DNA from: Acidobacteriaceae bacterium
GTDB lineage: Bacteria; Acidobacteriota; Terriglobia; Bryobacterales; Bryobacteraceae
Length of the DNA: 64,000 bases
Direction of reading: 5' to 3'
Assembly: GCA_019240405.1 (NCBI GenBank)
Contig: JAFAYL010000026.1
Location: 1-64,000 of the forward strand
A program made the translations under genes and the position numbers. Below the pieces are notes generated by a model. The model searched no databases. It saw only the letters and a list, made by a program, of their open reading frames with translations, and was not told where the DNA came from. Of this stretch, positions 29,426 through 40,679 are shown piece by piece. Position 1 is the first letter of the stretch, and each line of letters opens with the position of its first letter.

Positions 29426-30748
29426 GTGGACGTGTTCCCGGCTGCCCTACTCGCAGCTTCTCTGTTCTTGGCGGCGAACAATGATCAACGCCTAGAGACA
29501 TCCGGGACTGTCGAGCCTGCGATCGAGGAGTCATCTGCTACTGCCGATGCGCTGACCGCCGCAGTTCGAGCAGGGCGGCTGGACAAAATCGAACAGCTTA
29601 TCCGATCCGGTGCGGATCTGAATGCCCGTGATCGAGTCGGCAGCACGGCGCTTCACGCAGTTGCAATATCCGGAGATGCGGAAATAGCGCATTTCCTCCT
29701 GGCGCACGGGGCAAAAATCGACGCCCTGCAAGGCGTAACGGGTGCGACGCCGCTCGAATGCGCCGCGCTGAGCGGCAAAACGCAAGTCACGAAACTGCTG
29801 CTGGAAGCGGGTGCTCGCGTCGACTTGCGCGACAAGGCGGGCGAGACGGTGCTTCATCTGGCGGCAGCTCGCGGAAACGCCGAACTTCTCGACTTGCTGA
29901 TCGGCCATTGTCGCGACGTCGACATGCCCGATGCAAGCGGGGAATCCGCGCTGGACGAAGCGGTATCCGAGCGGCAGCCCGGTATTGTGTCCATTCTGAT
30001 CGCACACCGCGCCAACCCCAACCGCGTGCATCAGCCCGGCGGAAGGACTGTACTCGATGAAGCCTGCATAAAAGGATTCGCCGAACTAATTGAGCCGTTA
30101 ATCGCGGGCGGCGCGGACCCGAACTGGCGCGATCAATCGGGCCAATCACCGCTCGATCTCGCGTTGGCGTACAAAAATGCGAACGCGGTCGTGATCCTGT
30201 TGCAACTCGCGAAGAGGAACAGCGAATTGCAGCGGGCGGCCGAAAACGCAATGGAAAGCGCCACGCTGCGCGGCCAAACTGAAACTGCGAGTCTTCTGAT
30301 TCAGAGCGGTTTCGATATCGATAAACCCACCCCGTCCGGCTCCACTTACCTGCACGATGCATCTCTCAACGGCCGCGAAAAGATGGTTCGGCTGCTGTTG
30401 GAACGAGGCGCGCGGCTGGATGCGCGAGACCGAAACGGCGCAACGCCTCTTCACGAAGCGGCGCTCGCCGGCAGCGTGGGGGTGATTCGCGTATTGCTCG
30501 ATCGCGGAGCGTACGTGGACGCGCTCGAAAACGATTCGGGCGCGACGCCTTTAATGTTGGCTGCATCGCTGGGCAGGACGGACGCCGTTGCGGTCCTGCT
30601 GAGCCGGGGCGCTAACAGCGAGCTCAGAGATCGCGCGGGCCGCAGCGCCTTAGATCGAGCAAAAGAAAACGATGATGCGCGGACCCTCAAACTCCTCGAA
30701 ACTTCCGCCCGTTCCAAGATTGCGCATTCGGCGAAAGCCGCGAGCTAG
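29426..30748 (+). CDS. Exported ankyrin-repeat protein
   Basis: 440 aa, GTG start. The N-terminus (FPAALLAASLFLAA) looks like a signal peptide. From about residue 38 to the end there are around eleven ankyrin repeats of about 33 residues, for example VGSTALHAVAISGDAEIAHF, AGETVLHLAAARGNAELLDL and NGATPLHEAALAGSVGVIRV. Ankyrin stacks are protein-binding scaffolds; a periplasmic or surface interaction role is inferred. The partner is not known, and the neighbours give no clue. Confidence 0.88.
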   Translation: MDVFPAALLAASLFLAANNDQRLETSGTVEPAIEESSATADALTAAVRAGRLDKIEQLIRSGADLNARDRVGSTALHAVAISGDAEIAHFLLAHGAKIDALQGVTGATPLECAALSGKTQVTKLLLEAGARVDLRDKAGETVLHLAAARGNAELLDLLIGHCRDVDMPDASGESALDEAVSERQPGIVSILIAHRANPNRVHQPGGRTVLDEACIKGFAELIEPLIAGGADPNWRDQSGQSPLDLALAYKNANAVVILLQLAKRNSELQRAAENAMESATLRGQTETASLLIQSGFDIDKPTPSGSTYLHDASLNGREKMVRLLLERGARLDARDRNGATPLHEAALAGSVGVIRVLLDRGAYVDALENDSGATPLMLAASLGRTDAVAVLLSRGANSELRDRAGRSALDRAKENDDARTLKLLETSARSKIAHSAKAAS

Positions 30749-35307: not shown

Positions 35308-36354
35308 TTGCCGGCCGCAGAAGACGATTTCCTCGGCATTAACGAGATTGCGGAACTCGCCGGGGTGTCGCGCCAAGCAGTAGCAAATTGGCGCGCTCGC
35401 TTCTCCGATTTCCCGCGACCTGCGGCGAAATTGAAGGCGGGCCCAATCTTTCGCGCGCGGCAAATCCAAGCGTGGCTTAGAAGGAGAAAAGTTCCCATGG
35501 CTCGTGTTGTTTCTCTAATCAATCTCAAAGGTGGTGTCGCAAAAACAACGACCACCGTAGCTCTCGCGGAAACGCTGGCTTCGCAGTTTGGCAAACGTGT
35601 GCTGGTTATCGATCTGGATCCTCAGACGAACGCAACGGTAATGCTCATTGGGGAAGCCCGCTGGAAGCAACTCAATGAAAAAGGCTGGACCCTCGCCACG
35701 CTTTTTCAGGACGCGCTAGAACCACAAGACAAGGAGTTTAATCTCGAAAAGACACTTCAGCGAAAAGTATCAGATGTACAGGGTGCGGAAAAGGTCGATC
35801 TTCTCCCATCCAGTCTTGATCTCATCGATGTTCAGGACAAACTCGCGAGCGCCCCGACCGGCCAGTTTTATTCAATGACCCCGATCGACATCCTGCGGCT
35901 CGCGGTAAAAACGAAAGTCTCTGATTACGATTTCGTGCTCGTGGATTGCCCCCCCAACCTCGGGATAATCACATTGAACGGTCTGCGGATTTCAGAGGGC
36001 TATGTCATCCCAACCGTGCCCGATATCCTGTCAACATACGGCATCCCGCAGATTGTAAAGCGTGTAGGCAATTTCTCGAAGGAAGTCGCAGAGGACATCA
36101 AGCCAATCGGCATCGTAATCACTAAGTTCCAAGCGAACTCGACTACTCACGTAAATGTTTCGCGTAATCTCCGGAAGGAGAACGAGCCACCTGTCTTCGA
36201 TGCCGTAATCCGCCAAGCGAACCAGCTCGCCGCCGCCGCAGAGTTCCAGCAAAGCGGCCGCCGAACGCTAAAGCAGAAATACGGATATCAGGACGACTTA
36301 GCAGACCGTTTTGTCGAACTGACGAGAGAGTTTCTGAAAAGGATGGATGAATGA
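35308..36354 (+). CDS. ParA/Soj-type ATPase with N-terminal helix-turn-helix
   Basis: 348 aa if started at TTG 35308. Residues 10-60 form a MerR/excisionase-like HTH (INEIAELAGVSRQAVANWRA then FRARQIQAWLRRR). From residue 63, a deviant Walker A (INLKGGVAKTTTTVALAE), switch I VIDLDPQTNAT and switch II VDCPPNLGIITLNG define a ParA/MinD-family ATPase. An internal ATG at 35497 with AAGGAG upstream could make a second product lacking the HTH. ParA proteins pattern DNA or protein cargo by ATP-dependent binding to the nucleoid. The stop overlaps the next start (ATGA). Confidence 0.85.
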   Translation: MPAAEDDFLGINEIAELAGVSRQAVANWRARFSDFPRPAAKLKAGPIFRARQIQAWLRRRKVPMARVVSLINLKGGVAKTTTTVALAETLASQFGKRVLVIDLDPQTNATVMLIGEARWKQLNEKGWTLATLFQDALEPQDKEFNLEKTLQRKVSDVQGAEKVDLLPSSLDLIDVQDKLASAPTGQFYSMTPIDILRLAVKTKVSDYDFVLVDCPPNLGIITLNGLRISEGYVIPTVPDILSTYGIPQIVKRVGNFSKEVAEDIKPIGIVITKFQANSTTHVNVSRNLRKENEPPVFDAVIRQANQLAAAAEFQQSGRRTLKQKYGYQDDLADRFVELTREFLKRMDE

Positions 36355-38218: not shown

Positions 38219-38506
38219 TCAGATTCGATTCACGAGATCCAGAAGACGCACGGCCCTCTTCGTAAAGAACAAGAACGCGAAGGCGATAGAACTTCTCAAA
38301 AAGATTGCCGCCTGAAGCAAGCCGGAAAACGAGCAACAGGGCATAGCTAAGTGATTAGCTTGGCTCCCTTTCAGACGCACCTCGAACGTAACACGCACGC
38401 TGTCGGGCGAATAAGAAGCGGCCAATACTTGTGCATCGACCGAAACATCGCATTCTTTGGTCTTCACCGTCGAGATGCTCTTGTCAAGCCTTGCAGTGGC
38501 ACTCAT
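38219..38506 (-). CDS. Possible small unrecognised protein
   Basis: 95 codons. The first half (TVKTKECDVSVDAQVLAASY then SPDSVRVTFEVRLKGSQ) reads like a beta-rich protein; the second half is less protein-like. Only a weak ribosome-binding site (GGGCCGG) precedes the ATG, and a strong hairpin lies immediately upstream. It may be a remnant. Confidence 0.3.
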   Translation of the reverse strand: MSATARLDKSISTVKTKECDVSVDAQVLAASYSPDSVRVTFEVRLKGSQANHLAMPCCSFSGLLQAAIFLRSSIAFAFLFFTKRAVRLLDLVNRI

Positions 38507-38545: not shown

Positions 38546-38954
38546 TCGGAGATGTGGAGAGTCGATGCAGATCATGTGTGACGGCATAGCGTACGGTCCT
38601 CCCTTGCTCGCGCAGGCGGCATGTGAGACATTTGAACCGCCGTATCGGCTCGATAATCGATAATCATTCGAACAGAACTGCAGCCCCTTTGTGCCAGGGT
38701 CGGCCCGTGTGGAGAGCTTTATCGCAACCCGGCACCGATGAGAGAGCTCGGCCCCGATTGGCCGATTTGGCCTCAATCGCCGGCTATGCTGATCAGCTCA
38801 ACGGCCAGGTACGAGTCAACCGGCTTCCAGGGGACGAGGATCACCATAGGGCAAGCTTAGGGTAAGAGCGGCAACTGCGCCTCACTATTCCACTTGAATA
38901 ACGTTGAGAGATTCCTTGCGGGTTTGTTGACACGTCGAAGGTCCGGGATTGATC

Positions 38955-40076
38955 ATGACTTGTATGCTGCCGCTTATTGCTCAGCTCGTTGCCTTTCTCG
39001 TGGCACTGATCGGCACATTCTTCAAGTGTGTAAAGGAGGATGCCCACGAAAAGCCGCTCCGATCATCGTGGGGCCTGCCTGTCCTCACCAAACCTGGTGT
39101 CTGCATCCTGACTTTGCTGATTGCATCGTTCGTGTCGTCGCTTTGGCTCACCCACGCCTCTTCGAAGGAGATGAGTGATCTAAGAACGAACTTAGCCGCA
39201 GCCAGAGGGGATTTGACCGCGTCTCTGATAGCCGAAAAGGCCTTGAGCCTGCAACTGAAGGGTGCCAACGATGAGATCCAGGCACGTCAATCCGCCGCCC
39301 AGATCGACAACGTAAGTAGATTGAACGAGGTTACGCAGAAACTCGAAAACAGCAGCGATCTCCTTTCAGGACGTATACGCAAACTCTCGCCAGTCCAGTC
39401 ATTCCGCCTGATTCTGTTCTTCGACGGTATGAAGCGGCCTACCCCGTGGTCGGGCGCTACTGACTCTCGGCCATCAGGCGTGCCTTTGCAACCCGGGGAC
39501 TCACCTGGCCTGTATTACGGCATGCTTTGTGGTTCTGGTTCCAGTATCCATTTCAATATGCAGATCTCGTCCCACCCGGATTTGGTTTTTCACTCCATGT
39601 GCGGCCTTACCGAACTGACTGGCGGGGCATGGGGTCTGTCCGTCTACATGAAGCCCGTTTACGAGCAGTGGGTACAAGACAGGCAGGGAATGTTCGCAGA
39701 GTTCGTTGAATCCTCTGAATACAACGCGAACTCGAAAATTGAAGGCCTCACGTTGAATTCCTTTTCGATGACCGGAAAAGGATTTGCCAGCATGGGTATT
39801 GATGAGGCCGGTCCCGTAAGCGCTTTGGCGAGATTCGAGCAAATTCTCCCAAAGTATGTGGGGTTCGGCGTCTCTCCAAATGGTGAACGGCTCGATCCCC
39901 AGCTGATCACGATGTATGGTACACGTGAGCCCGCAGAGGTCGGGGCTATGCGCGCGTTCGCTTTTATTAGGAGCAGTCAATGTCGACTGCGCCCGGAGTG
40001 GCGTGGAATCTCGCGCTACACAGGACAGACAGTGGATGGCCCCGTGATTTTGTCTATATCCCCGTCGCAAAGGTGA
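38955..40076 (+). CDS. Membrane-anchored coiled-coil protein with a large C-terminal domain, unknown function
   Basis: 373 aa from ATG 38955; a TTG two codons earlier is possible. Two transmembrane helices (residues about 4-22 and 46-66) are followed by a coiled coil (70-140; LRTNLAAARGDLTASLIAEK). A C-terminal domain of about 220 residues has FRLILFFDGMKRPTPWSGAT and LITMYGTREPAEVGAMRAFA. The topology resembles a membrane sensor or effector with a soluble head. It is on the same strand as the HTH-ParA pair and the He_PIG membrane protein, but separated by about 800 bp. Not recognised. Confidence 0.55.
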   Translation: MTCMLPLIAQLVAFLVALIGTFFKCVKEDAHEKPLRSSWGLPVLTKPGVCILTLLIASFVSSLWLTHASSKEMSDLRTNLAAARGDLTASLIAEKALSLQLKGANDEIQARQSAAQIDNVSRLNEVTQKLENSSDLLSGRIRKLSPVQSFRLILFFDGMKRPTPWSGATDSRPSGVPLQPGDSPGLYYGMLCGSGSSIHFNMQISSHPDLVFHSMCGLTELTGGAWGLSVYMKPVYEQWVQDRQGMFAEFVESSEYNANSKIEGLTLNSFSMTGKGFASMGIDEAGPVSALARFEQILPKYVGFGVSPNGERLDPQLITMYGTREPAEVGAMRAFAFIRSSQCRLRPEWRGISRYTGQTVDGPVILSISPSQR

Positions 40077-40152
40077 GCCGCCAGGAGCTATGAAGGCGTC
40101 ATCATCCGGGGACACACCGGACGCCGTCGCCACACCCCATCACACCTTTCTT

Positions 40153-40166
40153 ACGAACGTGTTACG
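40153..40166. promoter_or_regulatory. Candidate NikR half-site upstream of nikR
   Basis: GTGTTAC (40159-40165) within CGTGTTACG lies 20 bp before the nikR start. Its reverse complement CGTAACACG is found just upstream of the receptor gene. GTGTTAC/GTAACAC is the half-site type described for Geobacter NikR; no correctly spaced second half is seen here. Confidence 0.35.
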
Positions 40167-40185
40167 CTAATGAAACTATCACGCC

Positions 40186-40614
40186 ATGGGACAGCTAACG
40201 CGTACCGGCATTGCCATCGATGCCGATCTTCTCGACCGCTTTGACCGCTTCATCGCAAAGCAGGGTTACCCGAACAGATCTGAAGCCTTTCGCGACCTCA
40301 TCCGTGACCGTCTCGTGGGCGCTGTAATCGGTTTGCCTGAGGCCCATGTCGTTGGCACGATAACCCTCATTTACGATCATCACTCCCGCCTCCTGCCCGA
40401 CAAGCTGATGGACCTTCAACATAATCATCACGGAGTAATCATCGCTACCACGCACGTGCATCTCGACCACGACACATGCTTGGAAGTGATCGTAGTCAAA
40501 GGCCAAGCCAAACAAGTTCAAAAATTAGCCGACGTGCTCATTGGGACGAAAGGTGTTCGACATGGCCGGCTGGTCATGAGTTCACCCGCCGCCGTTCTCC
40601 CAAAGACGGCATAA
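40186..40614 (+). CDS. nikR: Nickel-responsive transcriptional regulator NikR
   Basis: 142 aa, usual length. N-terminal ribbon-helix-helix (LTRTGIAIDADLLDRFDRF, NRSEAFRDLIRDRL), C-terminal ACT-like nickel domain. The high-affinity Ni ligands are conserved: H90, H92 and C98 in THVHLDHDTCLEV, with H79 in LQHNHHG as the cross-dimer ligand. It represses or activates nickel genes on Ni binding. The receptor gene starts 51 bp downstream, so it is a plausible target. Confidence 0.95.
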   Translation: MGQLTRTGIAIDADLLDRFDRFIAKQGYPNRSEAFRDLIRDRLVGAVIGLPEAHVVGTITLIYDHHSRLLPDKLMDLQHNHHGVIIATTHVHLDHDTCLEVIVVKGQAKQVQKLADVLIGTKGVRHGRLVMSSPAAVLPKTA

Positions 40615-40652
40615 AACATGCCGGGAAGCAATCCATTTACGTGTCCGCCTGC

Positions 40653-40679
40653 GTAACACGTTTACATGGTTCGTAATAC
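40653..40679. promoter_or_regulatory. Candidate NikR site before the TonB-dependent receptor
   Basis: GTAACAC (40653-40659) and GTAATAC (40673-40679) form a direct repeat with a 13-bp gap that spans the receptor's start codon; TTTAC lies upstream. The first element is the exact reverse complement of the site before nikR. Confidence 0.35.

Follow-up and report, generated by a model that had tools for sequence, protein, structure and literature searches.

A predicted NikR operator shared by nikR and an Oar-like TonB-dependent receptor gene in Acidobacteriota

We report that a nikR gene and the gene of a giant Oar-like TonB-dependent receptor directly downstream each carry a predicted NikR box. 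Both genes lie in a 64,000-nucleotide stretch of acidobacterial DNA, the window, whose genome is 95.8% complete (features in Table 1). We consider it probable that NikR, once it has bound nickel, represses both its own gene and that of the receptor, and that the receptor imports nickel, probably as a chelate. Taken singly, NikR control of the receptor is well supported by the sequence comparisons below, and nickel is its likely cargo. NikR would be a repressor that depends on nickel. In its nickel-bound state it would occupy a pair of outward-facing GTAACAC-type half-sites with 13 bp between them, once before nikR and again over the receptor start codon. With enough nickel, NikR would shut off both genes. 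Under nickel shortage the receptor would be made, and TonB-powered import would carry the metal, probably chelated, across the outer membrane. Related genomes have this predicted box before genes for the inner-membrane transporters NikM and NicO, and for several other TonB-dependent receptors, as well. Binding of NikR to the boxes, repression by that binding and the nickel cargo are what we infer.

Table 1. Genes and predicted NikR sites in the window (window positions), and loci in related genomes with a second protein family beside nikR
Feature	Position	Strand	Remarks
nikR, 142 aa	40186-40614	+	ribbon-helix-helix and NikR_C; ATG at 40186
Oar-like TonB-dependent receptor, 1177 aa	40666-44199	+	signal-like N terminus, CarboxypepD_reg, PF25183 outer-membrane barrel
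CGTGTTACG half-site; holds right arm of nikR box	40158-40166	+	exact 9-mer; 19 bp before nikR ATG
CGTAACACG half-site; holds left arm of receptor box	40652-40660	-	reverse complement of CGTGTTACG; 5 bp before receptor ATG
Predicted NikR box of nikR, ATCACAC-N13-GTGTTAC	40139-40165	+	outward arms, 12/14 consensus; ends 20 bp before ATG
Predicted NikR box over receptor start codon (-13 to +14), GTAACAC-N13-GTAATAC	40653-40679	+	12/14 consensus
Second-family loci	L116 (G024), L121 (G011), L123 (G008), L126 (G034), L128 (G090)		NikR-like boxes

The regulator has the domains expected of NikR in Pfam and NCBIfam, RHH_1 (3.4e-8) and NikR_C (1.7e-32). The NikR equivalogs NF003381 and NF002815 score above cut-off, and TIGR02793 falls below its own. 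It is the sole NikR_C match in its genome. When the protein is aligned without gaps to E. coli NikR (1q5v), H79, H90, H92 and C98 fall on the high-affinity nickel ligands, three histidines and one cysteine. The nearest named relatives of this NikR place the host genome in Acidobacteriota: proteins 85 to 87% identical occur in Acidobacteriaceae MAGs, and one 70% identical in a Bryobacterales MAG. Directly 5′ of nikR is a 375-aa reading frame (window 38949-40076) that matches nothing in Pfam or NCBIfam. A ParA-type ATPase (window 35308-36354), encoded a few kilobases upstream of nikR, resembles plasmid partition RepA/SopA, with scores under the curated cut-offs of the RepA and SopA equivalog models. 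Further upstream, a 440-aa protein (window 29426-30748) is made up of many ankyrin repeats.

The receptor ATG at 40666 follows the nikR stop codon by 51 bp on the same strand. Its product matches PF25183 (OMP_b-brl_4, 6e-169) and CarboxypepD_reg, so that both partners named in the original prediction, NikR and an Oar-like receptor, were confirmed with Pfam and NCBIfam. We took CarboxypepD_reg followed by an outer-membrane beta-barrel as the mark of a TonB-dependent, Oar-like architecture, and this receptor has it. Pfam reported no Plug domain (PF07715) for the window receptor, yet reported one for the PF25183 receptor L308. The AlphaFold model is weak, with a mean pLDDT of 56. The 50 matches that Foldseek listed are all outer-membrane receptors or transporters of the TonB-dependent kind, at the low TM-scores of a low-confidence model; these structural matches would fit the receptor class and are supportive of it. 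By sequence, no solved relative was found at E 0.01. The genome contains about 50 homologous giant CarboxypepD-type receptors, an estimate from 112 match segments. Most such receptors of Acidobacteriota have, to our knowledge, no assigned cargo.

The original prediction had placed CGTGTTACG before nikR and its reverse complement CGTAACACG just before the receptor start, and both 9-mers are indeed there. It called them Geobacter-type half-sites and added that neither had a fully matching second half. That remark is literally true, but each half-site has a second arm that matches 5 of 7 bases exactly 13 bp away, facing outward. The half-site sequence had been named correctly and the arrangement had not: the delta-proteobacterial NikR signal given in PMC545781 is the inward GTGTTAC-N13/14-GTAACAC, and the arms here face outward as in the reversed form, GTAACAC-N13-GTGTTAC, that the same text gives for Desulfotalea psychrophila and for nikK of Desulfovibrio vulgaris. 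Presumably the earlier reader searched the inward Geobacter orientation. The prediction was too cautious about its half-sites, each of which is one arm of a predicted two-arm box. An observation discounted for a missing second half can be rescued by trying the other arm orientation.

Arm orientation and spacing were then compared across nikR promoters. We searched for GTRRCAC/GTGYYAC arms at spacings of 8 to 19 in four arrangements, in the regions upstream of 51 nikR genes belonging to the window's own genome and its relatives; two of the 53 nikR loci were dropped (L133, a partial gene, and L153, with less than 60 bp upstream). A perfect outward pair, GTRRCAC-N13-GTGYYAC, stands in 10 of the 51 regions. 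Spacing 14 occurs once, and spacings of 8 to 12 or 15 to 19 do not occur. One region has a perfect direct repeat, again at spacing 13. We rejected the inward Geobacter-type operator, since none of the 51 regions holds a perfect inward pair at any spacing from 8 to 19. The remaining 40 of 51 are without a perfect outward pair, so that in the majority of nikR genes here the site is weaker or missing.

We next consider what the box precedes in relatives. Exact matches to the extended pattern GTARCAC-N12-CGTGYYAC occur in 24 of 100 related genomes, against 3 of 100 for a reversed-pattern control. Boxed genomes have nikR far more often than unboxed ones (22/24 versus 31/76; Fisher p = 1e-5, uncorrected for kinship). 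The two in which nikR was not found are G032, which is 62% complete, and G033. There are 30 distinct sites. Of these, 17 stand before nikM (CbiM family), nikR or both, and 11 before TonB-dependent receptors, including one at G033:C2 that was recognized after the weight matrix described below had been made. One of the other two is inside a reading frame (G020:C18). The last (G033:C431, the same sequence as G033:C233) is near a contig end, at position 1959 of 2014 in L331; the contig part examined has no HMM match to nikM, nikR or TonB receptors.

A tighter pattern, searched across the order, was found in 54 of 257 genomes, against 3 for the control. For replication we used 38 sites from genomes that had no part in defining the pattern, some of which share genera with the first set. 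Of these sites, 27 precede nikM and/or nikR, 8 precede receptors and 1 precedes a NicO nickel permease gene, so that 36 of 38 stand before genes of these kinds. The receptors were recognized by HMMs built from the first-set receptors, and seven of the eight were confirmed by Pfam matches to Plug, a TonB barrel or PF25183; L322, the eighth, is truncated at the end of its contig and showed only CarboxypepD_reg and related folds. The remaining two sites are exact boxes as well, one in front of a gene for the cytochrome c biogenesis protein CcmH (G474, L311:1501-1527) and one in front of a cupin gene (G558, L327:2373-2399); they may be chance matches or unusual NikR targets. Use of the box throughout the phylum was rejected: there was no excess (7 of 297 genomes, 11 in the control), and therefore the box belongs to this branch. 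Its placement before nikR, nikM, NicO and receptors suggests that the window receptor probably serves nickel uptake.

We scored the window itself with a weight matrix built without its relatives of the same genus. A first matrix had left out 3 of the 30 distinct sites, namely G020:C18 inside the reading frame, G033:C2, which was then unclassified, and G033:C431. The held-out matrix additionally left out five sites of the window's own genus and was made from 22 sites of other genera only. Of 63,974 window positions, the receptor box ranks first (16.95 bits) and the nikR box second (11.64 bits); the third position scores 8.7. First-order Markov windows contain on average 0.075 positions at 11.6 bits or more and 0.005 at 16.9 or more, compared with two observed. 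The exact 9-mer occurs three times in the window against 0.38 expected, a count that 0 of 100 shuffles reached; tolerating one mismatch leaves only a small excess (15 versus 10.6 expected; 10 of 100 shuffles reach 15). We discarded the third exact copy (CGTAACACG, window 38387-38395, about 1.8 kb before nikR) as an operator candidate: it has no partner arm at 13 bp and scores -22.5. We also dropped the idea that the box motif alone is enriched in the window's own genome, which at two mismatches has 53 sites against 87 in the control; the matrix scored the 50 sites listed among these 53.

Next, we compared receptor orthologs with other receptors. Boxes stand on all five receptors of at least 69% identity whose 5′ end is present, those of the window, G003, G012, G009 and G097, with scores of 9.5 to 32 bits. 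The box of the G003 receptor is weaker still than that of the window, at 9.5 bits with three mismatches. A sixth match, 73% identical (G051:C504), is a 301-residue C-terminal fragment ending at a contig edge and stayed outside the test. By comparison, none of 54 other receptors, at most 53% identical, is boxed, and their scores reach at most 0.96 bits. Of the 54, 40 come from loci L178-L226 and have 200 bp or more of upstream sequence; the other 14 are further relatives chosen among the matches listed to E 1e-100. We kept a second PF25183 receptor of the window's own genome (G000:C9:212579, L164) apart from the 54, as it was found through its box, a one-mismatch site of 12.6 bits at G000:C9:212461-212487 (L164:1501-1527). 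It is possibly a second regulon member and only a lead, because about seven scores as good are expected by chance genome-wide, as estimated from the per-position p.

These orthologs bear on the reading that only nikR autoregulation is real, the receptor being co-transcribed or merely adjacent and the site at its start codon a product of chance or of codon usage. The gap of just 51 bp between the genes would suit it, as would the right arm of the receptor box, which lies in codons for Arg-Asn common to the window and G003; conservation of this second arm, being in coding sequence, may be codon-driven. Against it, the receptor box is the top-scoring position of the window. In G009 and G012, moreover, nikR and the receptor gene are on separate contigs, nikR over 9 kb away from either end of its contig, and each receptor still has its own box (in G009 two, one of them perfect). 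We regard autoregulation alone as improbable, and control of the receptor by its own operator as the better account. The short stretch separating nikR from the receptor gene has diverged between the window and G003, but both keep the CGTAACACG arm unchanged ahead of the start codon. In G097, which belongs to another family, the receptor (70% identical) is divergent from nikR (49% identical) and two boxes lie between them. The operator covers the window receptor's start codon (-13 to +14), suggesting that its mRNA leader is very short or absent.

We also looked at what adjoins nikR elsewhere. Neighborhood layouts were obtained for 52 of the 53 nikR loci (L133 gave none). The immediate neighbor is a receptor of this broad kind in 9 of the 52 and nikM in 11; in G059, a receptor is one reading frame away from nikR. 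The receptor-neighbor excess has a p of about 5e-6 to 3e-3, depending on the receptor fraction assumed, or 6e-4 to 0.04 when counted by genus. It could be argued that the shared 9-mers are coincidental and the neighborhood unremarkable. With dozens of such receptors in the genome, a receptor neighbor is not rare, one 9-mer copy has no partner, and the genome as a whole shows no excess of the motif at two mismatches. Set against this are the spacing test, the held-out matrix, the ortholog contrast (5/5 versus 0/54), the replication set (36/38) and the neighbor excess itself, which is weaker when counted by genus. We therefore disfavor coincidence and think it very improbable. The core of the original prediction, NikR sites common to nikR and the Oar-type receptor gene and the nickel role that they would imply, is supported by the spacing, matrix, ortholog and replication tests.

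In five of the nine loci with a receptor neighbor (G008, G011, G024, G034 and G090), the gene beside nikR belongs to a second family, whose members are 50 to 68% identical to one another and mostly about 750 aa. All five have CarboxypepD_reg in Pfam, and the G011 member alone has a TonB barrel, on the basis of which the family is called a receptor. In G008, G011 and G024 the second-family gene comes after nikR, and the best-scoring positions of each locus are found in front of these two genes; scores are weak in G024 (5.7 and 2.6 bits) and reach 5.3 on the nikR side in G011. In G034 and G090 the gene is divergent from nikR, with the boxes between them. The matrix scan found no box at the PF25183 receptors near nikR in G028 and G059.

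The form of the box goes with the kind of gene that follows. In the replication set (L293-L330), all 27 sites ending GTGCCAC or GTGTCAC precede nikM/nikR, and the 11 symmetric sites, ending GTGYTAC, precede the 8 receptors and the NicO, CcmH and cupin genes. The first set has exceptions: nikR/nikM sites of G003, G006, G012 and G097 end GTGYTAC, and the receptor site of G009 ends GTGCCAC. A broader reading, to which we give an even chance, is that Oar-type receptors include a NikR-controlled nickel-chelate clade, that several receptor families have been recruited in this order, and that the outward operator, which can straddle the receptor start codon, comes in two forms. On this reading, at least two recruited families would adjoin nikR, the window's 1180-aa clade and the unrelated-looking family of about 750 aa; symmetric GTARCAC/GTGYTAC would be found mostly at receptors and asymmetric GTARCAC/GTGYCAC mostly at the nikR-nikM promoter. 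If true, whether outer- or inner-membrane uptake is switched on first might depend on these two forms.

What the receptor carries is a separate matter from what controls it. NikR may control the receptor with nickel as signal only, and the cargo may be a cobalt or zinc chelate, a metallophore of neighboring organisms or a secreted protein. The last has a precedent in Oar of Myxococcus xanthus, described in PMC6434023 as a TonB-dependent transporter needed for protein secretion (Oar/PopC). The window's own genome also has no nickel enzyme among those searched: no NiFe hydrogenase was found, no urease scored above cut-off, and a lactate-racemase-like (LarA-like) protein gave a sub-cut-off match only. 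Its single CbiM/NikM-family match (G000:C24:2409-3005, L282) has no NikR box (best score -3.5), and an Rfam scan of this locus and the receptor locus gave no match at gathering score. Nickel demand is therefore unexplained. Nickel specificity has no sequence signature in the receptor; H133 and H807 are conserved in 5/5 boxed receptors and 0/13 others, with H73 present in 1 of the 13, too few sequences to weigh. Against a different cargo, what otherwise follows the box are the dedicated nickel genes nikM, NicO and nikR and receptors that vary in architecture, as is usual for an uptake regulon. We think a cargo other than nickel unlikely, and nickel uptake the better reading. A conserved metalloregulator operator offers a concrete, testable cargo hypothesis for one receptor clade.

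How does this system compare with known ones? Our literature search covered openly accessible papers, mostly at less than full text; within it, we found no report linking NikR or nickel to TonB-dependent or Oar receptors in Acidobacteriota, and no printed NikR motif for the order, for which the box described here is usable. PMC5343134 mentions neither NikR nor nickel, and the word metal is absent from the main text of PMC6434023. According to PMC6434023, CarboxypepD_reg is among the N-terminal architectures surveyed there, and M. xanthus Oar, a TonB-dependent transporter, is required for secretion of the protease PopC; its likeness to the window receptor is one of described class and architecture. 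Compared with the delta-proteobacterial NikR box of PMC545781, the half-site sequence and the 13-bp spacing are equal, and the reversed form is likewise outward. In contrast, the perfect pairs found upstream of nikR here are all outward apart from a single direct repeat. GTAGCAC/GTGCYAC variants occur often, and the targets include TonB-dependent receptors. As in regulons of the NikMNQO ECF nickel transporter, the box precedes nikM in relatives of the window's genome, whereas the CbiM/NikM gene of that genome stands elsewhere (C24), unboxed. Nickel TonB-dependent receptors are known, among them FrpB4 and FecA3 of Helicobacter pylori and NikH (PMC11247825), and reference titles in that paper describe FrpB4 and FecA3 as NikR-repressed. 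Here, likewise, a TonB-type outer-membrane receptor would belong to a nickel-uptake regulon, its NikR operator being predicted by sequence only. By description, it differs from FrpB4 and FecA3 in combining CarboxypepD_reg with a PF25183 barrel in about 1180 aa and in coming from Acidobacteriota. NikR-controlled nickel TonB-dependent receptors are thus known already; what would be new is their extension to an Oar-type receptor in Acidobacteriota, which would bring CarboxypepD-type receptors into nickel-regulated TonB-dependent uptake.
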